Source: Heterotrichella gracilis (taxonomy: Eukaryota; Sar; Xanthophyceae; Tribonematales; Xanthonemataceae). From it: a stretch of 64,000 nt of DNA. Within the stretch, counting starts at the first letter, position 1. The number at the start of each line of letters is the position of its first letter. A model generated the notes under the pieces. The model was not told the origin of the DNA and did no database searches. It saw only the letters and a list, made by a program, of their open reading frames with translations. A program made the position numbers and the translations under genes. Where the stretch lies: assembly GCA_032358255.1 (NCBI GenBank), contig JAULBX010031039.1:112728-176727 (forward strand), given 5' to 3'. Of this stretch, positions 8,209 to 58,090 are shown one piece after another.

Positions 8209-9890
8209 TGGGCCAGGGGTGGGTGGAGGAGGGGGTGTCGGGTTTTGGCCTAGAATAGCCCTAGGGTGGATACTAGGGTTTTACCCTAGGGGGGTGTCGT
8301 TGTGGCGTTGGGGCGATGGAAGGGAGTTGTGCTGCAGGAATGGACGGGTTGGCAGTGAGTTCTCTGGACTGGTGCTTTCTTTCTTGACCAATGTTTTATT
8401 GCCTGCGGGGATACCCCCACGTACAGCTGTGTGGGACAGGGTGTCACAAGGGTGACTAGGGTTCAACCGAAATGAATTCCAAGGGGTGACAAGGGCAGAC
8501 TCCTAACCCAAGCATGCCTTACAGCAACTTATGGGATGCCAACCAATCATTGAGGAAAACAGGTTGCCCTCACTACGCCAACCCCATTTGGTTGTGTGAG
8601 GGTTTTGTTCGAACGCTTTAGAAAACGCCATGTAGGCGGCGTTCCGCAGAGGGAATCACCGGTATTGGACACGCCAACCTCAACAAAACCTCGCGGGCCT
8701 TGCCTTTCCAGCCCCGTAGCTGCCCCTTGCGTTGCAGCGCATATGCAGGCATTGCGCCCACAAGTGCACCACGGACCTTGTGTACCGCCACTGGCTGTCG
8801 AGCCGAGGTACAATACGGTATGTTTAGTGCAAGCGCTGTTGTAAGTGTGTCCCTTCTGCCCCGTGTGGTGTTCGCATAAGACCTTACGGTGCTTCAGTCT
8901 GAACTTGTAGCGTTGCTGCCAACACCAGTGAGAGGACTTGCCGCAACCACTTGAACCACCTGTGGTTAACGGTCGAATCTACTTGGTACGCGGTTTGTAA
9001 CTCTTGCTCTTCCTATATGCCGCACAAGGCTTAAAAAACAGCAGATTGGATGCACGCCCGCCCGGCCAAGGTCGGTTTCAGACCCTAGGAGAGGGTTTTG
9101 TACATACCCTAGCGGTTCACCACCAGCAAGAACTGTTTTAACCAGTCACTGCTCTGCGGCTAGCCAGTCTGTGGGTGGTTCGACAAAATCAAATACTCAC
9201 TGCCTGGAACACCATTCAATGGTATAATTTATTCCGCAACTGTTTTGATTGGGTTATCGCACTGCAGGGCCCAACATCGAGAATGTTACCCTGGGATTCG
9301 AGACCGCCGGGAATTTCGCCCGAGGGCGGCTTTTTCGGCCGAGGGCGAAATGTGTGCCTGTACTTTAACAAAATGTTACACTTTGGCAGTGCGATATCCC
9401 AGTTTGGCAGTGCAATATTCCAGTTTTGGCAGTGCAATATCCCAGTTTGGCAGTGCAATATCCCAGTTTGGCAGTGCAATATCCCAGGTTTGGCAGTGCA
9501 ATATCCCAGGTTTGGCAGTGCAATAACCCATTCCTGGCAAGGTGACAAATGGACTGATCTATTTGACGGGAGGTATCCCCTATCTGGGGGGGATAATACG
9601 ACCTCACCAAACCCTGTAAAATTCAGTAGGAATGCCATTTGGCAGTGCGATAAGCAATAATATTACTTGCTGTAGCTGGCTGGTTTCAAGCTAAGGTGCG
9701 ATGTGGTACAATTCTGGGCAAGCAGAGAATAATTGAACCACATACGAAAAATATTATTAGTTCCAAGAGGGCTGCACACATCGTACACCGAAGTTTGCAA
9801 CAGGGAATGGCACATCGCAGTGCGATTCCGCTCATCAACTGTATTAGAAGTGCAGCTCTCATATTTGGGTATGAACCATTCCATGCGATA
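8209..9890. other. OMA1-BASS4 intergenic region in copy X1
   Basis: Upstream of OMA1 exon 1 and downstream of the truncated BASS4 copy. Long blocks (for example 8540-8850 and 9060-9110) align with 15480-15800 and 16010-16060 in copy X2, so this is duplicated promoter and 3' flank rather than new sequence. CCCTAGGG palindromes occur at about 8242 and 8283. No coding frame is supported. Confidence 0.5.
9383..9526 (+). repeat. 21-22 bp minisatellite, about 7 units
   Basis: Head-to-tail units of consensus TTTGGCAGTGCAATATCCCAG with single-base changes and one- to two-base T/G spacers. A solitary related half-unit lies at about 9639. Units are contiguous, with no spacers, and the array has no counterpart in copy X2. 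Confidence 0.9.
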
Positions 9891-11426
9891 TCATGCTTTG
9901 ACTGCTTCAACACTGCCCTGTGCACCGTCCACCCCCCCCGCAGCCGCATCTCGCTTGATCCAGAAGCTGACCAGCATTGAGTCAACCACTATCTGCAGGA
10001 GGTGCGCCATGACGCAGGTCACCACCGCACCCCCCGCGGCGCCCCCCAGCTGCTGTAACACGGTTATGGCCACGGGGAGGGTCTTCTGGCTGCTGGTGAG
10101 GATGACTGCGCGCCGGATCTTGTCGGCTGCAGGGGGGCAAGGGGAGGAGGGGTTAGTGTGCCTGGCACTCATTGCAATGCATGATTCCCCACCCAGTATC
10201 AAAACGCAGAAATGCAAAGCGTTTCTCAATTTAACCATGTGGTGTGTCGTCAGACAAGTAGGCACTTTATAAACGCTGCAAAACACCCTAGAAAAAATGA
10301 TCACTTGGCAAAATGGTCATCCCCCCACCCCCCACTGGAGCAACCAAGTCCCTACTCCCCACCTTCTCGCCCCCGCTGCCCCCCCACTCCCAGCCCCCAC
10401 GTGAGCGGCATGTTCATCCCCAGGAAAGCCAGGTGCAGCCCCAGGGATGCAGCCGCTGCAGCCAGCAGGGATCCAATCCCCAGCTGCAATCCCGAGCTGG
10501 CGGCTGAGGACACCTGGAGGGATGGAAACACTCGTCGGAGGTAGTTGCCTAGAATAATATACTTAAAACCCACTCCATACCCTGGATCACAGCTGGAGCG
10601 TATGGGTATGAGGTGGGTGTTGGATAAATATTTTTCCTTGTGCAGAAAGCCAGTGGACAGCAGCGCCGCATCCCAAACAAGGGTACGGAGCACACAGGTT
10701 GCAGGGATTTGGGACCAGGGTCCAGGGTTTGCTCCATCCTGCCAGCATCGGCTCTTAAGAAAATTATCACTATGTTTTGTAAGCGCTTGCACACCTGCGC
10801 CACATTTTGAGCAAGGGTATACCTGCTAGGGTACAGGGGCTAGGGTTTTAATGGCAGCAAGGATGCAGGGGTTTGGGTACAGGGCAAGGGTATAGGGTTT
10901 GCCCCTTCTTACCTGCATCCATGGCACCATGACCAGGAAGCCTGTGGACACAAGCGCCACACCCCGCCTGTTGCCGTCCACTGCCCTGGCAAGGCCTGCA
11001 GGGCAAGGGGCGCGGGTGGCGGGGCACGCACATGAGGCATGCAGGAGGCTGCGCATGGTCATGACTCATGATGGAGCACAAGCCATGTCCTGAAGTTATA
11101 TAAACATAAATATAATAAGTACATGGTATTATATTTTTGCGTCAAACATCAGCGCAGAATTTCCACTATATTAGCGCAGAAACCCCAATACCTACACCCT
11201 ACCACAACCCTACTCCACCCGGTAGCGCCGCGCGCAGCCCCGCCCCCACCAGCAGCGGCACCAGTATGGTCTGCACCAGCGCGCGCAGCAAGGGGGCTGG
11301 TTGCAGTGAGATGGATGCGGAGGATGCGCCCAGCACCCAGCACAGCATGTAGGGCATGGTGGCCACCCCAAGCAGGTTGCTGCCCACGGTCAGGAGCAAC
11401 GCAAGGGCTGCATTGCCACCCACTGC
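9891..11426 (-). pseudogene. 5'-truncated BASS4 copy (exons 4-7 only)
   Basis: Four exons match the intact gene at 16475-19519 with identical lengths: 11426-11219 (208 nt), 10995-10913 (83), 10513-10363 (151) and 10126-9891 (236, including the stop). No frameshift or stop is present. Sequence blocks include AVGGNAALALLLTVGSNLLG and LTSSQKTLPVAITVLQQLGG, as in BASS4-type Na+/metabolite symporters. Exons 1-3, which encode the transit-like N-terminus and the first membrane segments, are absent; the DNA beyond 11440 is unrelated. It therefore lacks its promoter and plastid targeting. The donor after exon 5 is GTAAGA here, whereas the intact gene has GCAAGA. The intact frames suggest either a recent origin or residual expression from an adopted promoter. 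Confidence 0.8.
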
Positions 11427-15164: not shown

Positions 15165-16474
15165 TGGGCCAGGGGTGGGTGGAGGAGGCGGTGCGGGGTT
15201 TTGGCCTAGGGTCGCCCCATGTGGACCCTAGGGGTTTACCCTAAGGGGGCGCCTTTGTGGGTGGTGTAGGGCCGTTATGCTGCAGGAAGGGACGGATTGA
15301 GGGGTGGGTTACCTAGATGAGTGCTTTACCTGGACCGGTGCTTTTTGCCTGTGAGGATACCCACATACAACGTGAGACGGGGTGTCACAAGGGTTTACAA
15401 GGTTGACTAAGGTTCAACCGAGGTGAGTTCCAAGGGGTGACAAGGGTAGACTACCAACATATGCAAGTCTTACAGCAACTTATGGGATGCCAACCAACCA
15501 CTGAGGGAAACAGGTTGCCCTCACTACGCCAACCCGTTTTGGTTGTGTGAGGGTTTTGTTCGAAAACCTTAGAAAGGGCCATGTGGGTGGCGTTCCACGA
15601 TGAAACCAACGATATTGGACACGCCAGTCTCAACAAAACCTTGCGGGCCTTGCTTTTCCAGCCCCGCAGTTGGCAACCCTTTATTTGCAGCGCATATGCA
15701 TGCATGCAGTGCGCCCACGGACCTGTGTATCGCCACTGGCTGTCGAGTCCTGGTACAATACGGTATATTTATTGCAAGCGCTGTTGTACGTGTGCCCCTT
15801 CTGTCCTGTGTGGTGTTCGCATGAAACCTCGTGCTGATTCAGTCTGATGCCTATAGCGTTGCTGCCAACAGCACTGAGAGGACAAGTGACCAATCACTTG
15901 ACCCACATATATTTGAAGCTACATGGTACGCGTTTTGTAGCTCTTGCTTTTTCTTTATGCCGCATAAGGCTCAACAAGCAGCAGCACCGATAGATGCATG
16001 CATATGCATATGCCTGGCCTAGGTCGGTTTCAGACCCTAGGAGAGGGTTTTGTACATGCCTACTCTAGTACCTAGAGGTACCCCGGGGACCCCGGGGGTC
16101 ACCATGTTCATCCAAAAAGCCACCAACAAGGAGCTGCAGCTTTAACAAGCCACTGTCCTGCGGCTAGCCAGCCTGTGGGTAATTCGACTCCCAAACAAAC
16201 ACTCACTACCACTGCAATGGAGTACTGCAACTATCTTGGAAGATTTGCTTCAGCATGGTTTCAAGTTGAGGTGCGATGCGGTACAGCTCTGGGCAAGCAG
16301 TAACAAAAGAAGAAATAAAATACGTGGTACAAAACGTAATTTGTTCGAAGAAGGCTGCACACAATGTACACCTTGGAGTGCACCAGGAGAGCTGTTCACA
16401 TCTCAGACACGAGTCTGGTCACCAACTGCATTTGAACCGCAGATGGCACCGAGTATGAGCCACTCCATATGGTA
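15165..16474. other. OMA1-BASS4 intergenic region in copy X2
   Basis: Aligns with 8209-9890 apart from the minisatellite. It contains the 5' flank of the isolated OMA1 exon and the 3' flank of intact BASS4. No coding frame is supported. Confidence 0.5.
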
Positions 16475-19400
16475 TCATGCTTTGCCCATGTCAATACTGC
16501 TCTGTGGACCCTCCACCCCACCCGCAGCCGCATCCCGCTTGATCCAAAAGCTGACCAGCATTGAGTCCGCCACTATCTGCAGGAGGTGCGCCATGACGCA
16601 GGTCACCACCGCACCCCCTGCGGCGCCCCCCAGCTGCTGTAACACGGTTATGGCCACGGGGAGGGTCTTCTGGCTGCTGGTGAGGATGACTGCGCGCCGG
16701 ATCTTGTCAGCTGCAGGGGGAGCGAAGGGGGGAGGGGTTACTCTGCATATTCCATGGCATATTCTCCCTCATTTCAGCAATTGCAGGTTTGCTATACCTT
16801 TGAGTTGTGGTATGACGTCAAAGAGAGGAGGCAGTCTTCACATGCTGCAAAAACACCCCAGGCAAAATAATACCAAAATGGTCACACACACCCCACTGCC
16901 GCCCACAGTAGCAACCTAGTCCCTACTCCCCACCTTCTCTCCCACGCTGCCCCCCCACTCCCAGTCCCCAGGTGAGCGGCATGTTGATCCCCAGGAAAGC
17001 CAGGTGCAGCCCCAGGGATGCAGCTGCTGCAGCCAGCAGGGATCCAATCCCCAGCTGCAATCCCGAGCTGGCGGCAGAGGACACCTGGAGGAATGGATAA
17101 AAGCCATTGGAGGTAGTTATCTGGAAATATAGTGCCCAACACCCACCGCATACCCAAACCCTTGTCTACTGCAGCTCTGATTGACGGAGAACATGGGTAC
17201 GGGGTCGTGTTGAGTACATTAATTACCTTTGCAGTGACAGCAGCACCACACCCAATACTACAAAGCACACAGGTTGCAGGGATTTGGGACTAGAGTCAAG
17301 TGTTTGCTCCACGTTGCCAGCACATTACTTCTTAAAGAGATTGTCACTAATTTTGGTGCCCTGTGCCACGTACAAGGCAAGGGTATGTCCAGGGATTAGG
17401 GTTCAGGAGGCAGCAAGGATACAGGGGCGCAGGTACAGGGCTAGGGTACAGGGCTAGGGACTAGGGTTTTCCACCGTCTTGCCTGCATCCATGGCACCAT
17501 GACCAAGAATCCTGTGGACACAAGCGCCACACCCCGCCGATTGCCGTCAACTGCCCTGGCAAGGCCTGCAGAACAAGGGGCGCGGGTGGCGGTGCACGCA
17601 CATGAGGCATGAGGCATGGCCGCAGGGGGCTGCACATGGTCATGAGGGAGCACACGGCATGTCCTGAAATGGTTGATGCGTGGCAGAAACTTGTGCGTTA
17701 CATTTCGCGCCAAATGACAAACGTCAGCGCAGAAACTCGCTGCATTAACACGCTGGAGTGCAGAAACCCCAATACCTGAACCCTGCCGCAACCCTACTCA
17801 CCCGGCAGCGCCGCGCGCAGCCCCGCCCCCACCAGCAGCGGCACCAGTATGGTTTGCACCAGCGCGCGCAGCAAGGGGGCTGGTTGCAGTGAGATGGATG
17901 CCGAGGATGCACCCAGCACCCAGCACAGCATGTATGGCATGGTGGCCACACCCAGCAGGTTGCTGCCCACTGTCAGGAGCAGCGCCAGGGCTGCGTTGCC
18001 ACCCACTGCCTGATGGAAAGAGGGAAGGGTGGTCACGAGGATGAATTAAATTTCCAATTTTTTTGTTATCTGATTTCAATTTATTTTATTATTTTTGTTT
18101 CAGTTTCATTTCATTTTGCGCATCGTGCTTTAATTTTCTGAGTTTGGGAACTGCTTCTCAGCAAATAGGTTACTGAATTGTTTCTCGGACAATTGGTTTA
18201 CAAATTGTTTCTCAGCATATTAACAATAAAACCTACAATACTCGCCTGCGTCAGCGAAATGCCTGTGGAGAGCGTGGTGGGCACACACGCAAACACCGCC
18301 AGCCCCAGCGCCAGCTCCGGCGGGTGCAGGGGGAGGCGCAGGGCCACCATGCCCAGCAAGGGGGTGATGATCAATATGGCCACCAGGCCGTACAGGGTGG
18401 CTCCCCAGGATGACAGGGCGCGCAGGGCGTCCCCGCGCTTCATGGCCACCCCTGCAAGCAGTGGTTGTTCCTTTTCTATGCACCAGGAATCATTGTGCGA
18501 TGCGGGAAGTAAAGTACATGAATAAATTAGGGATTACTACTGGTCTTGTATTTACTGGAGACATATGTTTCCAATCGTATGGCGCTTGTACATGGTATGA
18601 TGGTCAACACCTATGTATAGCCAGGCCTGCAAGCGTTGGTGGCATGGGTAAAGAGGTGGCGACTGGATGTGGGCTGCCAAGGAAGCGATATGAATTAGAC
18701 AGCTGACATATGCACTATGCATTGCCATGCCATAGCGCAGCATGAGCCTTTGGCGATGTTTACTGCAACGCAGACTTGTACTGGACATATTGGGACCCGC
18801 ACTGACAAACTTGTGAGTTGGAGGAGGTTCAACGCGTTATAACAATGACGTGCCTTGCATCCCCGCTGCCACGCCCGCTCTGTACCTGAGACTACGAATA
18901 TGCCAGTGGTGGTCCAGCGCTGCAGGCCCTGCTGCGCAGCCCACACACCGGGAGGGGGGTGTAGGTAGCTGCAAGGAAAGGTGGGGGGTACGCCGTGAGT
19001 CAACAGCGGAGGGTGTTGCGTTTGCAGCCTAAACCGCATTGGCAGCGACATGCATGCATATGGCATGTGCAGGGGTAAGGTCTTGGGAGAGAGAGACTGT
19101 CTCGCAGGTTATGTACAGGGGTTTTGATGACGTTGGTATTATGTGTAAGCTTACCCAGATAGGCAAGCGGATAGGAGACCTATGGGGATGAACTGCTCCG
19201 AGATGAACTTGCGCATGGCTTGGAGGGCAGTGGGCTTGGCGCTGGGAGCAGCAGCCTGTGCCTTGACACAGGGCCGGTGCACGTCACTCCATCGCCGTGC
19301 AGTTGAGGCTCGTTGGCACGCAAGGTGCAATCTTTGGCCTAGAAAGGGCTGCTGTTGACGGGGTCTATGCCATCTGGGGGACACACAACCTGGCTGATGC

Positions 19401-42600: not shown

Positions 42601-44447
42601 GCGGTGATGATGGCGGGTGGTGGGGTGGTGGAATGTAAGAAAGGGTGGCCTGCAACCAGCCTGCGGTGAATGCACGTGCATGGTCACCTGCTTTCCCCCT
42701 CTACATCCAACAACCCACACAGCTCCACTGGCCACCCACCCCCGCCGCCCACCCACCTACCACCGGCAGCCGGCACACATTGCTCGCCAACGCCCTGCTG
42801 ATGCACTGATACATCTCCATTACCCCGAGAACACCACAACTATGCATCCTACCCGTAACACCCTGCCAGTCCATTCCCCCTCCCAAACACAGCCACCCAT
42901 GTCCCACCAGTGTTCAGTGCATGTCTATTACCCCCCTCCCCCTCCCCTCCACCCCGCAATTCATCACTCCCGCCACCTACCTCCCACCGGCGGCCGGCGC
43001 ACGTTGGTCGTGACCGCCCTGCTGATGCACTGGAACATCTCCACCACACCCAGCGTGGGCGCAAGCCAGCCGTAGTTGTGCGCCGAGCGCGGCAGGTTTG
43101 CGATCTTGGCCATCTCCTCCAGCAGGATGAGGCAGCGCTTGAGCACGAACACCAGGTCCTTGTGCAGGATGGCGGGGATGGGCTCGCGCGCAAGGTGGGC
43201 AAGCAGGAGCATGTGCACCTGGAGTGGGGTTGGGGGTTGGGGTGGTGGTGCGGGGCGGGTCAGCGCATGATGGGGAAGTGCACCAATGGGGTGATTCAGT
43301 GACACATGCACATGCCCAACATGCTGCGCACTGGGACAAAATGCACACATGAGACCCTGTCTTTGTTCCCTTCAAGAATGTGCCATACACGCACCATCGC
43401 CATGCAATCTAGATGAGCCCCGCCCATTCATCAAACACAGCAGAGCTAGGAGAGCACCATGCACCCGCCACCGCACAGGACAACTCCCCCCCATCCCACC
43501 CGCCACACTCCACACGCCAGGACCCTACCCAAAACCCTCCCCGGCCCCCTCCCTACCTTGAGCACGCTTGTCTTCCGCTTCCAGAACACCGACTTGTCCT
43601 TGAGCTCGGGCTGCAGCCGCAGGATGGTTTTGCGCAGCTCGTCCAGCGCCCCCTGCTGCTCGTGCGGCACCGGCATCTGGATGAATTCCATGGCGATGAC
43701 CAGCGTCTCGGGGATGCGCCCCAGGGACTGCGCGGGCTTGACCGCGTACTGGGAGCGGTAGAACATCTCCAGGGTTTCCGGCAGCAGCTGGTTGGGCCCC
43801 ACAAACTTGTTGGAGTTCATGAGATAGCATGCTGCAACTAGGAGGGGCAGCATGATGCCGCACCCCACCAGGCCCGCCAGCAGGAACGGCGCTGACTTGG
43901 AGTCCTTGCTGAAGATCCACTCGGGCAGGGCTACCCCAATGTTGATGGCCTGGCGCCCGTCTGGGTGCCCAAACTCCTGCCAGTTCTTGCGCGAGGTTTC
44001 GTCTGTGAGGGCTTGATAGGCCTTGTTGATGTGCTCGGTGAAGTACTTCTGTGCGTCTGGGTCGGGGTTTTTGTCAGGATGGAAGATAAGGGACAGGCGC
44101 CTGTACGCCTTTTTGATCTCCTGGTCTGTGGCTGTGGTCTGCAGCTGCAGGATCTCGTAGGGGTCAAAGGGCTTTTGCTCCTGGAGACCCTTCTGCACCC
44201 AGCCCAGGATCACAAACAGCAGCAGCCACAGCAGCAAGATGCCCACATTGCTCACAGTCAGCTGCCTCCGCAGCTTCTCCGCCAGTGCTGACTTCTTCTG
44301 CTTCTTTGAGACCCAGCCCTGCACGGCCTCGTCCTCCGCTGCGCCCCCCCCGCAGCACTTCCATATGGTGGCGGGGACCAGGAAGAGCGCCATGATGGTG
44401 ATGATGAAGATGCCAAAGAGGGCTGAGTTGCCCCTGTGCTCCTCCAT
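39619..44447 (-). CDS. SEC63: SEC63 / ERdj2 J-domain subunit of the ER translocon
   Basis: Eight exons: 44447-43557, 43218-42981, 42545-42460, 42016-41855, 41496-41233 (or 41592-41233), 40920-40627, 40318-40190 and 39849-39619, phase-consistent; 764 residues (796 with the longer exon 5). Hydrophobic segments lie at about 12-29, 68-83 and 187-210. Between the second and third is a J domain (about 93-160) with HPD at 123-125 (YRRLSLIFHPDKNPD). The rest matches the Sec63/Brl region, and the C-terminus is strongly acidic (EEDEEREERESEAEDEE...). SEC63 sits in the ER membrane, uses its lumenal J domain to stimulate BiP, and assists post-translational translocation through Sec61. Exon 5 has two in-frame acceptors created by a 96-nt duplication, and part of exon 2 is duplicated in intron 2. 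Confidence 0.92.
41401..41592 (-). repeat. 96-nt in-frame tandem duplication at the start of SEC63 exon 5
   Basis: Both units begin with an AG acceptor followed by GACGTGTCCGACA and encode MENDVVTLDIWAL. The distance between the two acceptors is exactly 96 nt and the frame through both units is open, so use of the distal acceptor adds 32 residues. Confidence 0.85.
42750..42838 (-). repeat. Partial duplicate of SEC63 exon 2 within the following intron
   Basis: About 230 bp downstream of the true exon 2 end, the minus strand again encodes GVMEMYQCISRALASNVCRLP, compared with GVVEMFQCISRAVTTNVRRP in the exon. It retains an equivalent donor (GTAGGTGGG) but starts mid-exon, with no acceptor. Confidence 0.75.
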
Positions 44448-45400
44448 GGTGGCAGGCTGGTGGGGTGGTTAGCCAGGCAGGTGGTGGGGAGCGGTTAAGG
44501 GTCAGTCATGACCACAGCCAGGAGTGGCAGCCCACCTGCGCCAAGGGACAGCCATGAGTCATAGCTGCACCAAAAGCAAGACTGGATGATCGCCAGTATA
44601 GGACTGATTATGCACTGATACACTATGCTACTTGGTACCCGGTGGAGGCCACAGTGGGTGGCTATTGACTGCGCAAGTCCCAGGCCCCTGTGCAGTGTTG
44701 GGTGCGTGCATGCTGCATGGGGGAACCTTGCCACATTGATTGACTTACACGCAAGGATCAGCGCTCCGCAATGATGTATCGTATGTAAACGCCTTCAGGA
44801 CTCGGAATCCCAAGCAGATCACTGGCCTGCAGGTGCACCGTTCTGATTGCAACCACCCCCGGTATGCAGATGAAGCATGCTTCTGTGATAGCGAACTCCA
44901 ATCGCGCCTGATATCCAATGTGACAAGGGCTCCAGGCAGGATTTCAAAGTGAGCAACGTGGACAGTACGTTCTTCACGTACTTTATGCGGCAATCAGCTG
45001 TGCAAGCGGAATGTGCCGCCGCCGTGTGCCACCCGTCCGCCAAGGTCCGCCTGCAATATGCATGCATACGACACTTGTTTGCAGCCAATACTTATTGCAA
45101 CAGGAGCCCAACCAGCTTGCCAAAGTGCGCAAACCTCGTTAGGTTTTTTACTGCCCACATATGGTCTTCGTCACTATCACTCGTAAGCCCAACGAAACCT
45201 CTGCGCCCACCCATGTCCCCCTGACTGCATTGAGAACTGACCACTACTGTTGAAAACCACGCTGAAGTGAAGAGTCTTGAAGCTGGGCTGTTGCGTGGAC
45301 ACTACCCAGTTGTGATTCTGGTCATACTTCTCTGTGACAAACGCAAGTGTCCAACTTGGAGACGTGCGCAACATATAGAACACCCCGTGAACAGACCAAG
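44448..45400. promoter_or_regulatory. Divergent SEC63 / PFD6 intergenic region
   Basis: 953 bp between the divergent starts of two protein-folding genes. It includes several short open frames but none with a recognisable product. Specific promoter elements could not be assigned. Confidence 0.4.
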
Positions 45401-48108: not shown

Positions 48109-51100
48109 ATGAAGAAGGCAGGGGTGGTCCAGGAGGGGCTGAAATCTACCCGGAAGAGGACCCGGGTCACTAATCCAGCCTACGAGGACTATGGCCCAGA
48201 GGATCAGTACGAGGAGCTGGATAACCTCTACAAGCAAGACGCAGACCAGCAGCTGGGCCTCCAGACCTACGAGGAGGACGAGGAGCCCCCATACTATGTT
48301 GCTGAGGGGCAGCAGTCTGACGGGTACCAGTCAGATGAGCCCCCTGCCCCCAAGCCCAAGTTCGTCGAAAAGAGGAGAGCAAAGGGCGTGGCGTACGACC
48401 CCAACGCAGCAACTCCTTCGGACGCCTACCAGGACGTGATAGGCAAGCACCGCCGCAAGAAGCAGCGGGTCATCATGCTGCCTACCGCGCTCGCTGGCGT
48501 CACCAAGAAGCAGCGGACCACCAAGCACAAAAGGGCCGCTCGAGCTCCTGAGGCGCTGGCACAGATGCAGCAGCCGTTTGAAGACTACGAACCCCCCGCC
48601 AACGTCGCCCCGCCGGAGCAGCATGCTCACCACACCGGTGGGCCGCAGCTGGGAGCCTTTTTGAGGCCGCTGGACTATGACACTTTCTACTTCCGGCTGT
48701 TCCTGACCAAGGTAGGCACATGTCGAGGGTTTTGCGTGCCCACATGTCGGCCTGCCATCACAACGCACAGGCACGTTGCACACACAGAAAGCGTGGGCAC
48801 TTGAAAGGCACGCTTTCCTTCGCCGTTTGCAACAACATCGAAGCCCCTGTTATCACGTTTGCTCCTGCATGCACCTTTTTACATCCTGCAGGCGGACTTT
48901 TGCATGCATGCACAGGTGCTTGTGATCCATCCAACGGCCTTTTGCATGCATCCGGTCAGTAAAGCCATGTTTTCTTGGTCCTTCTTGACAACGTGTTGGG
49001 CAGTTGTAAACTTGCCACACTGTTTTTTTCAAGCTTGCTAAAGAGCAGCAAGCCAAGGCATCACAGGGTGCTCCACATTCAGTAGTTTTCCTTAGCATCT
49101 CCTGCTGCACTGCACTCTGTCCAGCTGTTTGGGTGCCCTACTTTCACAATTCAACGTCCCTGAGCACTACCCACAACGTCAAGTTTGAATTCGTCAGCTT
49201 CCACTAAGCTTGTTAAAGACCAGCAAGCAAACGCAACACCTGCACCTCCACATTCAGGAGGATTTTCTTTGCAGTCCCTGCTGCACTGCACTGCATTCAG
49301 CTGCTTGGGTGCCTTATTTTCACAATTCAACGTCTGTGAGCAATACCCACAACGTCAAGAATGAAATTGTCAGCTTGCCTGTGCTCTGGAGGTGCAGGCA
49401 GGTAGATAGGCGCACCCTCTTGTCCCCACACATTCTGCACACCTTTCTCCTTCTGCAGCTCCCACCCACTTTTAGAACCCACTCTAGTGATGCACCCACC
49501 TGCTCTTCATATTTTTGCTTAATTATGCTTGCCAGACACTTGGATCCTGGCTCCCAACTGCACAGCACTCCCCTCACCCCTCCCTCATCTCCCTCCCCAC
49601 AGCCTGTGGCCGAGAAGTACCTGCCCAAGCGCCACAACGCGCCCATCGAGCTCATCTGCGCCACCACCGGCCGTGCTTACCTGTGCAAGCTGTACTACAA
49701 GCCCGAGCACCGCCAGTACGCCATCTACGGCTCGCTGTGGAAGAAGTACCTGCGCGAGAACCAGGTCACGCGCGGCTGCGTGCTCAAGTTTGAGCACACA
49801 GGCATCTCGCACTCCTCCGAGGTCACGGGCAGCCACAGCTACCGCGTGTCGGTCGAGTCCCGCTCCCTGGACATGTTTGGGGACGACCTCACCTCCTCGC
49901 GCGAGGCCCGCCAGACACGCCCCAAGACCAAGTCCACCGGCAAGGGCACCCCCAAGATGCGCGGTGGCACCAAGGCCTCGCCCAAGCCAAAGACACCCGC
50001 AGCTGCCATGGGCCTGCTCACCCTCGCAGGGTCACGCTCGCCGGGGGGGACCAAGCGCGGCGGGCCCAAGGGCCTTCCCAAGCCTCGAGGGGCAACCACT
50101 GCGAATAAGCGGGCTGGCGCGGGTGGCGAGATGATGGGGGTGCCCGGGTTCTGGGGCGGCGGTCTGACGCCTGAGACGCCAGGCTTGGAGGAGGTTGACG
50201 GTGCTGGGCGCGGCGAGGAGGGCCGCACCGCCAGCCGCCTGCTTGACTACGGCAAGTGGGACGACTGCCTCATCATCACCAAGGTGGGGGCGCTGGGGCC
50301 AGGGGGGGGTTTTGCGCTGGCGCTGCACATGTGTCATGTGTAGGCAAACAATGGCCCATTTATGGTGCAGCGCAGGTGCTGGCGACAGCCCTTTGGCTTC
50401 ACCTGCCTGTGCGCAGCGCCCCATTTGAACCATGTACCCCAACCCCTGCACGCACATTTACCCCACCCTGCCTGATCATCACCAAGGTGGGGGTGCTGGG
50501 GCTGCGCACGTCTCATGTGGAGGCAGCGATGCATTATGTTGCACCGAAGATGCTGGCGACACAGCTCTTTTGCTCCATTGCCTGTGTGGAGCAACCCATG
50601 GCACTTCACTCCAATCATGAACCATGCACCCCACCCCAAGGCCACCGCACACATATCTTCGCCACCCTGCGTTCCCAGCAGATGTTCTCCATTGTCCCCT
50701 TCCTGCTCCCTCCAGCCACCACCACACGTCTCACACGCACCTGATCTCCCCGGATTTGCAGGAGATGTACCCCATCTTCCCTTTCCCCGAGGAGCCCATG
50801 CCGTCCGATGCCCCCTCCTTCACCTCCAACTTGCAGCTGGTGCACGCATCCATCGTGTACCCAGTCAAGTACTTTGCATACCCCACCGGGGCGCGCGTGG
50901 TGACCAAGGGGTGGAAGGAGTTTGTGTCGGCTGTGGGGCTGGAGAAGGGGGACCTGCTGCACGTCACCTTCCTAGGGGAGGAGAAGCTGCTGAGCAGCCC
51001 AGATGCAGTGCACAGGTGCGGACAGTGCGGGGGTTGAGCAAGCTTAACTGTTTATTCAAGTGGTACCTTAATGCACTGGTGGTTCCTTATGAACTGGTTG

Positions 51101-54100
51101 CTGTACATCATGGGTGCTTGGTTCATGTGTATGCATCCATGCTTCAGTAGCTGCCAGTAATTATACCACCTCAGTGCCTCTGTGTGTCTGAGACACTGAA
51201 CACCCGCCCTCGGCTCCCCTCCCCAGGTACCACGTGCGCTTCACCCGTGCAGCTGACCTGGTGGACGGGGAGCCAATGGATGCAGATGAGCAGGTGAGGG
51301 GTATGCCCGCACAGTCTGCAGGGGTGCTTGCGGTGGAGGCAGGAAGGGTGGGTGGGCAGGTCCTGGTTTGCGGAACAGTACCCTAATGAGGCGACGTAGG
51401 GTACTGTTTCATGTGTCAGTACCCTCGTCGGCCACTTGTGGCATGTTTCACGGTGTACTCAGGTGCATGCATCACCACCTTGCATCGATCCATGCCCGAA
51501 CCAGCCAACTATGCACATACGCTGCAGTAGCATTGCCACTGCTGACGTGGGGTACCATCACACCTGTGCCCATATTGCCGCAGCAGCACATATCCCCTGA
51601 CAATCTCCTCTCCCACCCCCCCAGGGCACCGACCATGATCCCCTGGCCCTGCTGCCGCACCCCTCCCATGCCCCTCTGCCCCAGTTTGATGGCGAGCCAA
51701 GCGCCCTGGGGGATGCGCTGAGGCAGGTGCATCTGGTGCAGGCAGAGGTGAGGAGGGCAGAAATCCTTGCTTAGGGTTGGTGCAGTGTTGAAGAGCACTG
51801 GGAAATATTGATATTTCATTGCACAATCCTGTAGGATCTGATGCATCCCAAATGTACCTCAGGTGCCAGGCAACACGATTGGAACCTGCCTAGCTAGGGT
51901 TTGTGGTTGCTCAGCCACAAGACTGATTATGTCTGGGTTTAGTTGATCTCAGTTGCCAGGGTCACTCTGAAGGTTCCCACATTCTCAAGTGCATCCATAC
52001 AATGAACCCGTTGTGCTGTTCTGTGCAGTACAATCTTGTGGCAATGAATTCGCTCAAGCAATGAGTTCTTTAAATCCACGAGATTCAATGACCATTCCTT
52101 TCAAGGGCATCCCAGCTGGGCCATTCCCTAGCACCAGTCTGCCCCACCCACTGACCCCCTCCCCCCCCCCTCTCCCCCTGCCGCAGCAGCAGTACATGGT
52201 CCAGTGGATGGCCGGTCTGCCCCCCACCCCCGTCACCAAGCAGGCTGTGCTCAAGTGCAAGAAGCAGCTGGGGAGGGTGCTGGATGGGGTGATTGCAGGT
52301 AGGAGGACAGCAGCCTGGAGTGGTAGGGGCACGCCATGGCCTGCTGTGTTGCCCAGTAGATGTGATCCAAGGGGGAAGGGTGGATCAGGATGTGCATGTG
52401 CAGATATGGCGCCAGAACTGGAGGCCGACAATTGAGCCTGCGTGGCTTTGCTCATGACCCCCTGTCTTGGTGGACTGCATGTAAATAGCTTGATAAACTA
52501 TGTTTTAAGGAAGAAAAGCATGTGCTCATCACCTCAGCACCCCATCCGCTCCTCCACCCCCTCCCACCCACATCCACGCCACCCCCACCCGCAGGCTCCC
52601 TCCAGCAGGCCGCCCCTGGGGTGTGGCTTGACCCCCTGCTGCTGCAGCGCCTGGGTGTGACCTACCTGGCGCACTCGCAGTGGCGCGGCAGGGCCATGGA
52701 GCCGGGCGATGGTGTGCTGGATGACATGCGCAGACACGTGGACGGGACCCTGCTGGCGGTGCTGGGGGGCGAGTGCCCATTCAGGCTGGCGGTGAGTGGT
52801 GCTTACGTGGTGGGAGCAGGGTGCACTTCAGGCAGGCCATGAATGGTGGGAATTGTGAGGGGAGTGTGTGTATGGATGCTTGGAAGGCTGTGGGATGGGG
52901 CTGGTGGTGGTCTCCTGCGTTGGTGGACTTGCAGCATGTTTTAAATTCACCAGGAAGGCAACAGGCGTGCATGCCCAGGGGGCTGCTGGTGTGGGGTGTG
53001 TTGAAGGGGGGTGGGGTGGAGGTTGCCATGGTCATGTGGCATGTGGTACACCAGGAGGGACAGTGTCAGGAGGGTGTTGCACGGAGTGTCCAGTGCGTGT
53101 CTAGAGAAACATACCAACGGGGGTGTTGTTAGAGTCTTGATTGCTTGGCATGAGCTAGGGTTTACATCTCCAACGTATCTGCAGGTGATGCCAGTGACGC
53201 AAGCGCCAGAGAAGGGCCACGGCGTGTTTGCCATGCAGGACATCCCGGCAGGTAAGAACGGAGCAGAATAGCCTGACAAGAACCCTGCATCCACTCATGA
53301 AACCTGGCAAGGACCCTAGCAAGGCGTGTGCATTACTGCCAAGCGTGCAATTGCCTGCATGCCCAATGGCTCTCAAGTGATCACAGCGGTTCAGACTATC
53401 GTATGCGCATGCCCTTTCCTGGCAAGTCTACATCCCACCCCTTGGTTCACCCACACACACACACCCCATTCGCACCCCCCAGGCGTGTACATCTCCTCCT
53501 ACGAGGGCGAGCTCATTGACAAGAGCCAAGCTGAGCCCAGGGAGGTGCGCTACTCAAAGAAGAGGGCGGTGAAGAACAAGAGCTACATGTGGGAGCTGGA
53601 CCCTGCTTACGTGGCGGTGGAGGCGGTGCACACAGCAGGTGGGTGGTCATGCCCTACACCCTCATCCTGCATCCTAATCCCTGAATCCGTGTGTCGTGGC
53701 GGAGGCGATGCAAACGGTAGTTTGGCAGGAAACCCTACAATCTGATCTTGGAACCGAAATTCTACATGTCGGAGCGGGTAACCCTAGTGTAACCCCTGCC
53801 TGTTCACTGCCGGTTAGCTACATGCATTGCACATCCTCAATGGAGGAGTCAGCTTTTGCATACGCGTTACTGTGGGGCGCCGTGTGGTATCCTTTGTGAA
53901 TCTGTATATGGCTGCCACATTGGTGCTGCAGCAAGTGCTCTGCTTGTCAGGCTAATCCCTTCCATGCACGCCTACCTACCAGGGGGAATGCATGTAACTA
54001 ACTAACTAACGCCCACCTACCAGTTTGCCCGTGCACTCCCACCCACCACCCATCCAATGCCCCCTACCCCCTGCTCCCACAGACCAGCAGATCCAGTGCC

Positions 54101-56041
54101 AGCCAATTCCCACTGCGCCCCTCGTCGTGCCCCCCCTCTCCACCCTCCCACCCGCATCGGGGCCCCTGGTCACCGAGCCAGGCACCTCCCTGGCGCCAGC
54201 CTCGACCGCCATGCTGCCGCACACCAGCGACGCCCTCCCCGCAGCATTCGCAGCGTCCAACATCACCGCAGCCACCCTCAGCCTGGCGCTCTCGGCATCC
54301 ATGCCCACCGCACCACTGCTGACTATGGCGCCACCCGAGGGGGCGGTGGCGGGGCTGGGGGCGGCTTCTCCGCTACCCGCGGGAGGCGTGGGGGCCAAGG
54401 GCCCATCCGCCGATCTCATGGTGTCGCCATCACAGCCCGGGGCCGCGCTCCAGATGCTGGCGCAGGCCTCCGAGCGCGCGCTCGACTACCGCGCCACCCA
54501 CGGCGTGAGCGCAGAGCCCTCCCCTGCACCCCTGGCCCCACAGGCGCCACCACCGGAGGGTGCCGTGGCTGTGCAGGCGTCGCCAGTGGTGGGGGGTGAG
54601 GATGCGACTGGCCTCCCTGTGGAGGTCTCTCCCCAGGGCCCAACCCTCACGCTGGCTGAGCTCCTGTCAGGGGAGGAACCAGAGCCACCAGCTACCTTTG
54701 AAGTGGCTGCGCCAGTGGCTGCCGCGCCGGAGGATGCGCCACAACCACCGCTGCCGCCACCAGCGGAAGCGCCTGCACCTGAGGCTGGTGCTGTGGAGGG
54801 TGGTGGGGATGTGGCTATGGTGGAAGCTGCAGAGGAAGCTACGCCCGAGCAGGCACCGGCTGCGGAGGTCCCATTGGGGGATGGTGGCGCAGCGCAGCCC
54901 GCAGGGGAGGTGGCAGCGCCAGGGGAGGAGGGTGTTGAGGGTTCAGGGGAGGAGAAGGACGCGGCAGGGGAGGAGGTGACAGGTGTCGCTTTCCCTGCCT
55001 TGGCACCCCAGCTGGAGCTGCCTACAGGTAGGATGCCGGCGCAACTCCTGTCTTGTTTTCACCCCTACGTAAATGGCATGATGTGCATACAGAATTAAAA
55101 TCCTATGTTATTGGGGAAATGCCTACAAATTGGTATTGACAAATCAATCTTGAGATATTGGCGGAGCATACCTTCATGTATCTGCTCCATTGAGCATCTG
55201 CTGCGCCGTTTGGAAATGCCAACCTCTGCTCACAAAGTGTTGAAGCATCCATTGGGTACAGAAATTGAAGGCCATCGTGGCTCGTTCCGAAAACCTCCAC
55301 ACCCCAGTCCATGCATGCTTCCCCTTGCTGCCCCCTCCTCTGAGCCCAACACCATCTTCTGAACCTGTCGCCACCCCCCGCAGCCATGCTCAACCCAACC
55401 TCCACCCACGGCCTGGTGGGTGCGTCAGCCGGGGCCAGCGGGGAGGGCGCCCCCGCACCTGCGCCCGTCAACTTCCGCCACAGCGGCGAGCGGTGGCTCC
55501 AGTTTGCCGGCTGCCACATCGACGCCACCATGTGCGGCAGCGTCAGCCGCTGGCTCAACCACTCGTGCAATCCCAATGTCAGGTGGGCGGGTGGGGAGGG
55601 GGCATGGGGGAGGTGGCTGCTAGTGGGTAGGGCCAATGGGGGTGGAGTGAGGTGGCAGAAGAAATGACAGCTCTGCATGTCAAAATGGTGCAGGTTCCAA
55701 TGGCTTGAGAGTGTAACCTGATATCAATGCATATGTGACAATTGCTGGGTGTGCCATGCAATGCAAAAGTATTGACCATTTGCCACCACTGCTGCTCCTC
55801 CCACACGCCATCAGCCCCCACTCACCCCCCACCCCCCACCCCCCACTCCTGCAGGGGCGTTGAGGTTGACGTGCCCTGGGCCCCCACCAAGGTGGTGTTC
55901 CATAGCCTGAGGCCAATCATGGCGGGAGAGGAGCTGACCATCAACTACCAGCCAAACGCAGCCATGGTGAACGGGGTGAACACAGGGGGGGCAATCGCGT
56001 GCAAGTGCGGGGAGCCAAACTGCACGGGGTGGACCATCTGA
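48109..56041 (+). CDS. Predicted histone-lysine methyltransferase with two B3-like DNA-binding domains and a split SET domain
   Basis: Twelve exons: 48109-48711, 49603-50283, 50762-51015, 51227-51293, 51625-51747, 52187-52298, 52595-52791, 53185-53251, 53483-53638, 54083-55027, 55384-55582 and 55855-56041. Every junction has AG/GT and matching phase; 3,591 nt, 1,196 residues. First B3-like domain about 190-272 (YDTFYFRLFLTK, then YAIYGSLWKKYLRENQ and GCVLKFE). A basic linker with TKSTGKGTPKMRGG follows. Second B3-like domain about 420-511 (VVTKGWKEFVSAVGLEKGDL). SET: KGHGVF (689-694), SSYEGEL (706-712), RWLNHSCNPNV (about 1124-1134), GEELTINY (about 1159-1166), and post-SET CKCGEPNC (1184-1191). 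Exon 10 inserts 315 Ala/Pro/Glu-rich residues inside SET. It is probably a nuclear, DNA-targeted lysine methyltransferase. SET is certain; the B3 assignments are from fold-pattern recognition. Confidence 0.85.
49032..49378 (+). repeat. Tandem duplication inside B3-SET intron 1
   Basis: Two units of about 172 bp (49032-49203 and 49207-49378), each starting AGCTTG.TAAAGA.CAGCAAGC and ending near the words CACAACGTCAA and GTCAGCTT. Roughly 80-85% alike by eye. Confidence 0.8.
50265..50670 (+). repeat. 203-bp tandem duplication spanning the exon 2 donor of B3-SET
   Basis: Copy 1 (50265-50467) covers the end of exon 2 (CTCATCATCACCAAG|GTGGGGG) and the start of intron 2. Copy 2 (50468-50670), entirely in the intron, repeats CTGATCATCACCAAGGTGGGG, so a second donor-like site lies 203 bp downstream. 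Confidence 0.85.
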
Positions 56042-58090
56042 GGAGGGAAACCCTAGGAGCAAACCCTGGCGGCAAACCCTAGGGAGGGGCGTTTGCGGAG
56101 CTTGTGGTCAAGGTGATGAGAAACCCTGGGTAGTGTTGGTGGGAAGGGGCAAGGGGTGGGTCCAGCTGGCGCCACCAGGCAGCGCCTTGGTGGGGCAAGG
56201 GGCGTGGAGGGGAGGGGGTGGGGGAGGGGAAGACCCCTGCCACCTTGGACGTCGGAGGTTGGGATGGGAGTATCTATTATCCCCCTGGCAGGTTCAGCAT
56301 CTGGACCCCAGGGGCTGGCTGGGCAAGGCAGCTGGGAATGGCTGCTGGCATTTGCAGCATTGTGGTGTTTTCCAAAAAAGTTAGCATTTTCAAGGCACCC
56401 CGCAGGGGTTCCATCCTGACGAGCAGTACCCCATGCATGCATTTTCCACTGAGGCATGCCTGTATGCATGGCTGACGCCCTGATGTGAGACTGATAGGTA
56501 CTTAGTTGCGGGTGGCATGGCATTGCATCAGTCCCGCAAAACCAGCTACTGCCCTCAATTGTGCGCATCCCCTTTTTTTCATTTGCACTCACCACTGCAT
56601 GCTGCACCGCACTGCATCACTGACACACACCGCTAGCCGAACCGCTGCACATGGCAGTGGCTTTGGGCTGGTTGGTATCGATTGCTGAGCCATGGTTTTC
56701 GTGTGTCAGCACCGCCAGTAGACATGCACCCTGATCATCTATAGGGTGGGTGTACTTTGGCGGACTACATCTTTGCATGGGGCATACAATTGTGACATTC
56801 GACACAGGACTGCACACCAGGGTGGGGGTGTTTCAAGCTGCCTGTTTTTTGCCCTTGCGTGGGGAAACGTTAAGCCATCTTTAAGCTGTGAAACCTTGTT
56901 TTGCTCAGCATATCCTGTGACTTATACCATTGTGTTGGCATTGTTTGTAAAGCTGTGACTTAAAACCAGTTCAAGCTGTGTAGGCCTGAATGTATTGGGG
57001 TTCATGGCCCTCTTTGTGGCGTGGGCCTGCCGGCTTGGTGCGGGGGGCGCCTTGCATGTGTGCATATGGCTGCAGCGCCTATGTCTGCGCTGTCCCTGTA
57101 ACGTACAGATGGGAGTGTGCCGCTGCTGATGTATGGTATAAAACTACAGTCGAAGCATTCCATGGCGGGCACCCTAGGGATCCATTGCATGCGCACAGGC
57201 CAGCTGCCAACGAGCGCATATGGGCAGCCCTGGCGGTGGGAGTGTGTGCCCACGGGCTGTATGCTCAACACGGTGCCATGGTACACCGTCAAGTTGATAA
57301 ACCCTATGCCAGGTGTCTTTAGAGACACAAGTGCTAATGCCACCTGTGCACACGCTAGCTAGAGTCTCGGGGGCCTGCTGCCAGGATGTGCATGGTGAAA
57401 CTAGAACTTGACCCAAAACCCTAGGGGGTATCACCCCGACCCTGCAAGCGGGGAGGGTCAATCAAGACCTCACACAAAAGTACATGGGCGCCACACACCA
57501 CCAGCTTCCGTCCACGCTTGCTGCAGCGCTAGGTGCCCCGAACTGGTGCTTTCATGCCGTTTGCTGACACGCCATCCCACCAGCATCCATCCAAGGATGG
57601 ATACCCTGCAGTGACGGGACAACATCCACTGGTGCCAAAGCTATTGCACTTTTTGTTTGACAAGCAGGGCGTATTGAAAACACCTCTGGCCTCCCTTCAA
57701 TCTGTGAGGTCAACCCCTTTGGTAAGGGTTACCCCTGGCGGAGCTGTTGGCGTCAGCATCTTCTCGGCAGCGCCCACCCAGGTACGCTTGCATGCCATGA
57801 CGTGGGTCACCACCTTGCGTACCGTGCGGTGTACGATTAGGGGAAAAGGCAGTATTTGCTCTTCTTGTGTCTTGACCAAGCGCGCATATGTATGTGTGGC
57901 GCTGTGCACCATTGTGGCTGGACTGGATGGCCTTGCACCCCCCCCTCAGTGCACACCCCAGTGTGACACTATTGTTAAATGAAGCTAGTAACCCCCTGGG
58001 CACCCCTCTGTGAGTGATGTGTTCCACCCCTTGTGCCCCACCCACCCACCCATCTCACTCCACCACCGCCCCACCCCGCAACCCCAGGCC
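56042..58090. other. Intergenic, no supported gene
   Basis: Follows the B3-SET stop and precedes the F-box gene on the same strand. The first ~900 bp is likely B3-SET 3' UTR (see the TGTAA at 56946); the rest should hold the F-box promoter and possibly a 5' UTR intron, since an AG acceptor lies three bases before its ATG. Confidence 0.45.
56946..56950 (+). terminator. Candidate TGTAA poly(A) signal for B3-SET
   Basis: TGTAA is the dominant poly(A) signal in chlorophyte green algae. This one lies about 905 bp after the stop. Confidence 0.35.

Follow-up and report, generated by a model that had tools for sequence, protein, structure and literature searches.

Gene model at the locus

The gene described here is predicted to join two B3-like DNA-binding regions to a SET methyltransferase domain. 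It lies in a 64,000-nucleotide window (C846:112728-176727; contig JAULBX010031039.1) of the Heterotrichella gracilis assembly GCA_032358255.1, which comprises 68.5 Mb in 903 contigs; positions below are those of the window unless a contig is named. Splicing in silico between 48109 and 56041 on the forward strand gives 12 exons and 1196 codons, in which the only stop is the terminal one. All 11 introns of this B3-B3-SET model read GT...CAG and every exon join is in phase, which bears out, over exactly the same interval, the 12-exon structure proposed in a first-pass annotation of this DNA. The initiator methionine at 48109 is the first ATG downstream of an in-frame stop. GC content is 0.50–0.60 in the introns, compared to 0.68–0.88 at the third codon positions of the exons. 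The features of the model are as follows; B3-1 and B3-2 denote the first and second B3-like regions, and SET-N and SET-C the two parts of the SET domain.

48109..48711, + strand: exon 1, amino acids 1-201; the N-terminus is charged, short basic clusters lie at residues 15, 88, 115 and 133, and the exon ends in the first B3-1 strand, YFRLFLTK
48682..49803, + strand: B3-1, amino acids 192-268, crossing intron 1; Pfam stretch 192-268
49603..50283, + strand: exon 2, amino acids 202-428; B3-1 core, basic Gly-rich linker and first B3-2 strand, CLIITK; 3' end placed by the gene finder at 50339 or 50343
50762..51015, + strand: exon 3; B3-2 core, Pfam stretch at amino acids 461-501; start placed by the gene finder at 50716 or 50765
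51227..51293, + strand: exon 4; final B3-2 strand; end placed by the gene finder at 51347
51625..51747, + strand: exon 5; bridge
52187..52298, + strand: exon 6; bridge
52595..52791, + strand: exon 7; bridge
53185..53251, + strand: exon 8; SET-N, with GHGVF
53483..53638, + strand: exon 9; SET-N, with SYEGEL and YMWELD
54083..55027, + strand: exon 10; Ala/Pro/Gly-rich insertion within SET, 315 codons, phase 1 at both ends
55384..55582, + strand: exon 11; SET-C, with HIDAT and NHSCNPN; Pfam SET stretch at amino acids 1109-1167
55855..56041, + strand: exon 12; SET-C EELTINY, post-SET CKCGEPNC and stop
56946..56950, + strand: first TGTAA 3' of the stop; a second follows at 57097

One gene or two

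Exons 5, 6 and 7 bridge the B3-like regions and the SET domain. To score these three exons, we used a codon model whose training set left them out and consisted of exons 1-4, 8, 9, 11 and 12 plus ten domain pieces from elsewhere. Their held-out scores were reached by 4.1%, 0.5% and 1.6%, respectively, of 2000 random open segments, and one antisense frame of exon 5 slightly outscores the coding frame. The splice sites of the bridge introns score 3.3, 3.3 and 2.5 for the donors and 6.0, 6.0 and 4.2 for the acceptors, compared to regional 90th percentiles of 1.2 for all GT and 1.8 for all AG.

We also applied an independent gene finder based on dynamic programming, which had 944 codons from other genes as its training set and generic splice models, under 18 settings. 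The outermost start and stop were 48109 and 56041 in every setting. Exons 1, 7, 8, 9 and 12 were recovered exactly in all 18, exons 5 and 6 in 17, and exon 11 in 11. B3-2 and SET-N shared a gene in 17 of the 18 settings, B3-1 and B3-2 in 15, SET-N and SET-C in 11, and all four parts in 11. An earlier run of the gene finder, in which splice bonuses created micro-exons, was dropped; of its 9 settings, 8 predicted one gene and the remaining one two genes, the second of these being a 24-amino-acid piece beyond 57 kb.

Several results weigh against a single gene with exactly these exons. Exons 2, 3, 4 and 10 were exactly recovered in none of the 18 settings, so their boundaries are tentative. Seven settings split the model, separating SET-N from SET-C in all seven, also cutting off B3-1 in three and parting B3 from SET in one. 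Forcing an intergenic point into 51294-52186 costs 14.7, 12.7, 10.7 and 8.7 bits at intron penalties of 8, 10, 12 and 14 (gene penalty 12). Because this cost is close to the gene penalty of 12 bits, exon content barely discriminates between one and two genes between exons 4 and 6. A break forced into intron 6 costs 25.1-31.1 bits, and that intron contains a copy of TGTAA (52480), which we take to be the chlorophyte poly(A) motif. The motif is also present in introns 1, 9 and 11 and is absent from 51294-52479; the stop of the model lies 905 nucleotides ahead of its first TGTAA.

The locus could therefore be read as two neighbouring genes on the same strand, one for a double-B3 protein with a stop at 51774, just after exon 5, and one for a SET protein whose start would be the ATG at 52088, shortly ahead of exon 6. 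The setting that was strictest, with penalties of 18 for introns and 6 for genes, produced this split, and the cost of a forced break at that place is mostly the gene penalty itself. However, it would leave 313 nucleotides (51775-52087) to hold a 3' untranslated region, a poly(A) signal, a promoter and a 5' untranslated region. No TGTAA occurs in those 313 nucleotides, which for a five-base motif is weak evidence, and the splice sites of all three bridge introns are strong. We consider two genes unlikely. Between exons 4 and 6, the splice sites, the phase, the 313-nucleotide gap and the mildly informative absence of TGTAA point to a single gene. As to the single polypeptide of the first-pass annotation, an open, phase-consistent model with B3-like regions upstream of SET and post-SET is found, and from it we infer one transcript.

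The B3-like regions

A Pfam scan of the whole protein, read against the curated cut-offs of 30.1 bits for B3 and 22.4 bits for SET, matched B3 above its cut-off over two stretches (E 8.6e-8, 32.5 bits). Trimmed and scanned by themselves, both regions fall below the cut-off, B3-2 with 23.9 bits (E 4e-5) and B3-1 with 18.3 bits (E 0.0023). We built three local B3 profiles with the window gene excluded, from 4 own-genome pieces, from 8 plant pieces and from all 12 mixed; B3-2 outscored 1000 of 1000 shuffles under each. Used as a single query against the Protein Data Bank (PDB), B3-2 gave four matches, three of them B3 proteins (E 0.32-1.3) and none a VAL1 chain. On this sequence evidence, we firmly place B3-2 in the B3 family.

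A profile of both regions, compared to 177635 PDB sequences, gave four matches at E<=10, all of them B3 proteins and none a VAL1 chain, though at weak E-values: TEM1 (0.0089), RAV1 (0.06), NGA1 (0.2) and At1g16640 (0.71), the last likewise a B3 protein, which an NGA1 B3 piece matches at E 0.019. A CW zinc finger, which is a trait of the VAL/HSI2 family, is not listed for the whole protein, where the Pfam scan at E<=10 gives only SET, B3 and PRDM2_PR.

For B3-1, the evidence is divided, and B3-2 could be the sole true B3 domain, with the B3-1 region an unrelated fold or a disordered stretch. Under the plant-only profile B3-1 is inseparable from shuffles, 302 of 1000 of which reach its score, and a single-sequence PDB search returned three matches, none to B3. 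Direct similarity between B3-1 and B3-2 is not significant either (231 of 2000 shuffles). These three results count against two B3 domains. On the other side, the score of B3-1 was reached by 0 of 1000 shuffles under the own-genome profile and by 4 of 1000 under the mixed profile, and the only Pfam match at E<=1 to rival B3 for the trimmed region was LGFP (E 0.18). Both regions also have a phase-0 intron immediately after the LTK/ITK strand.

The structure search that had been proposed for these regions was run on single window exons only, and we give its Foldseek results little weight. AlphaFold models of the exons, made without an alignment, had a mean predicted local distance difference test score of 60 for B3-1 minus its first strand and 50 for B3-2 minus its first and last strands. 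The order of helices (H) and strands (E) in the B3-1 model, H-E-E-E-H-E-E-E-E, is compatible with a B3 fold, at low confidence. Neither of these low-confidence models had a Foldseek match at E<=0.001. Among the best 50 of 364 matches of the B3-1 model, the NGA1 B3 domain had the highest probability (0.60; E 0.24, second by E-value) and further B3 chains were present, while none of the 27 matches of the B3-2 model was a B3 domain.

Taken together, these results suggest that B3-1 is probably a member of the B3 family; a protein with B3-2 as its only B3 domain is an improbable alternative. Two B3-like domains had been claimed at the outset: the second is upheld, and the first is weaker than claimed.

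The SET domain and its insertion

The whole protein matches Pfam SET above the cut-off (E 8.3e-17, 62.0 bits) and PRDM2_PR below threshold (0.087). The single NCBIfam match, to a SET-containing family, reached 29 bits where the cut-off is 550, and we read it as generic SET similarity. When the insertion was removed from the SET query, the PDB search returned histone methyltransferases, with a best E-value of 1.6e-14 and 113 sequences at E<=0.001, of which 60 were listed.

SET methyltransferases are marked by GxG, NHSCxPN, a catalytic tyrosine and, in the post-SET, CxCx4C. The model has GHGVF at residue 690, YMWELD at 736, HIDAT at 1113, NHSCNPN at 1127, EELTINY at 1160 and CKCGEPNC at 1184, as well as SYEGEL, so that all SET core motifs and three post-SET cysteines are kept. 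The motifs cited in the first-pass annotation (GHG, SYEGEL, NHSCNPN, EELTINY and CKCGEPNC) are all there. Its description of the SET domain as complete needs correction, however, as the domain is not contiguous: YMWELD and HIDAT start 377 residues apart, and 315 of these residues come from exon 10.

Exon 10 has the weakest coding evidence of the model, its codon score being reached by 6.05% of random open segments, and in 48 of 1000 composition-matched simulations at least one frame was open over the whole exon length. When the 2215 nucleotides around it were simulated 500 times, an open frame as long as the observed one, of 362 codons, arose only once. The exon (945 nucleotides) is symmetric, and the reading frame survives its skipping. 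Skipping would yield a more compact in-frame SET domain, and alternative splicing could in this way switch the enzyme.

The interruption weighs against an active enzyme, as does the region ahead of the domain. A Cys-rich pre-SET or AWS ahead of SET is a trait of the SUV39/SET2 type; the Pfam scan gives neither, and only two cysteines lie between B3-2 and SET. In EELTINY, an isoleucine stands two residues before the catalytic tyrosine. At the same position in seven translated algal SET places, six carry tyrosine or phenylalanine (L001-L004, L006 and L008) and one isoleucine (L005). As pre-SET and AWS are missing, a post-SET is present and an isoleucine precedes the catalytic NY, the target histone residue is not predictable.

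The same features would suit a single fusion protein whose SET domain has lost catalysis or works on a target other than histones, leaving the protein as a DNA-bound scaffold. About 370 residues separate YMWELD and HIDAT, there is no pre-SET, and the isoleucine departs from the residue found in most of the algal SET places. Yet no core motif and none of the three post-SET cysteines has been lost, skipping of exon 10 would leave the frame unbroken, and SETDB1 has a bifurcated but active SET domain. We regard a dead or redirected SET domain as quite improbable, and an active histone methyltransferase is the reading that we carry forward.

A predicted self-targeting histone methyltransferase

Judged from sequence, this fusion of known domains is credible and probably real. 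We favour, with moderate confidence, a nuclear algal gene that encodes a predicted histone lysine methyltransferase with DNA-reading B3 domains of its own, and hence a self-targeting one. The exons would encode one 1196-amino-acid protein, as the model supports. At least B3-2, and probably both B3 regions, would fold as B3 and bind DNA. SET and post-SET, whose motifs are present, would fold around the long insertion into an active enzyme. B3 binding would then put the SET domain on nearby nucleosomes, and the mark would be written at loci chosen by sequence, with no separate recruiter.

If the protein is real, site choice on the DNA and the writing of a histone mark are combined in one polypeptide of a plant-lineage organism, and how a DNA motif leads to a chromatin mark could be tested in a single step. 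Such a protein would also bear on whether a tie between B3 domains and chromatin enzymes preceded the land-plant partnership of VAL with Polycomb repressive complex 2 (PRC2).

Other B3 and SET genes of the genome

Five places in the genome match B3 at E<=1 (the window, C148, C200, C60 and C24), none of them above the cut-off as a single exon. The place on C148 (C148:71932-77372; L045, L009) gave a hand-built model of 13 exons and 1119 codons without a stop, with all joins in phase and one GC-AG intron. It encodes a Helicase_C lobe (73.3 bits) followed by a B3 domain (34.0 bits, cut-off 30.1), with a second, weak B3-like stretch near the end (E 0.028); the ATPase part matches BRG1 (5.8e-53), STH1 and SNF2. 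This suggests a second candidate fusion of a chromatin enzyme with B3, here a SWI/SNF-type ATPase. Against it, exact recovery by the gene finder was limited to 3 of 13 exons, even with the most lenient setting. One gene was predicted at intron penalties of 6 and 8, while at 10, 12 and 14 the B3 domain was split off from the long linker exon.

With this candidate in mind, B3 may be a reusable targeting cassette that was fused to different chromatin enzymes, N-terminal to SET in the window gene and, on C148, C-terminal to a SWI/SNF ATPase. In that case, direct fusion would offer another and perhaps older solution beside the land-plant arrangement in which B3 recruits Polycomb. We offer this idea tentatively, as somewhat less probable than its opposite.

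A search with the first 753 residues revealed no paralogue of the fusion elsewhere in this genome: 9 of the 12 matches were the gene itself, and the rest lie on C890, C382 and C292. C890 and C382, both with SET matches, have no B3 place at E<=1 in a search that also missed B3-1 of the window. No relatives were found in viral contigs or in prokaryote genome contigs, and a plasmid search with exons 11-12 gave no match.

Among the other B3 and SET places, C200:118867-122136 (L010) holds a VAL1-like B3 gene (E 6.1e-11 to VAL1), with an AP2-like stretch seen by eye downstream in the same open frame and without a Pfam report. At C60:77252-80416 (L012), an exon with a VAL-looking B3 (Pfam 6.1e-5) is followed farther along by another stretch that looks like B3, again without a Pfam report. 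The SET gene at C382:25000-27199 (L046) has, by eye, a Cys-rich pre-SET-like stretch on its N-terminal side, and its SET-N is 37% identical to that of the window.

Elsewhere in the window, a DnaJ-domain exon (43449-44468, - strand; 74 bits) has a membrane-like N-terminus and appears Sec63-like by eye. Open frames at 9733-10269 and 16146-16916 (+ strand) have in common a near-identical peptide of about 70 residues, a repeat dispersed in the window. Contig C1 (L007, L024-L027), at 894 kb, is AT-rich with long bacterial-looking open frames, and the assembly appears to include a bacterium. A search of the assembly for rbcL gave no match.

Comparison with known systems

Text searches of the literature, judged by the titles and the starts of abstracts of the papers listed, showed no B3-SET fusion, and the first-pass annotation likewise knew of no described protein of this architecture; an unannotated relative may exist. 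B3 domains are called Viridiplantae-specific (PMC11685440), and on that ground the gene was read as one of a green alga. Chlamydomonas and Volvox are given single B3 genes (PMC2688026), and a survey of Archaeplastida SET domains covers 506 proteins from 16 species (PMC5725981). That survey describes Orphan-class SET proteins with unusual partners, including bHLH-MYC, and with some SET domains interrupted, as here; B3 is not among the partners given in the passages drawn on (PMC5725981).

Land-plant VAL1/HSI2 offers the closest parallel in logic. According to PMC8948837, VAL1 and VAL2 engage PRC2, and histone methylation follows at the site that B3 reads. VAL and PRC2 are separate proteins, whereas here SET and B3 stand in one model. 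The VAL/HSI2 comparison made in the first-pass annotation fits by logic, and only by logic, as the VAL1-like B3 gene of this genome sits on the other contig, C200. In sequence, the window protein resembles B3 domains of the REM/NGA/RAV type, with a B3-2 core of VxTKGWxxFV...L..GD and profile matches to TEM1, RAV1, NGA1 and At1g16640. Those proteins are transcription factors without a known enzyme domain.

SETDB1 likewise has a large insertion inside its SET domain, but combines it with MBD and tudor domains and has no known B3. PRDM9 is the animal analogue of a DNA-reading SET methyltransferase, a single protein that combines a methyltransferase of the SET type with domains that bind specific DNA sequences. 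Since such enzymes are already known outside plants, the novelty of the predicted fusion would be B3 as the partner. In PRDM9, C2H2 zinc fingers lie C-terminal to PR/SET, whereas in the gene model described here B3 lies N-terminal to a SET domain that is followed by a post-SET.

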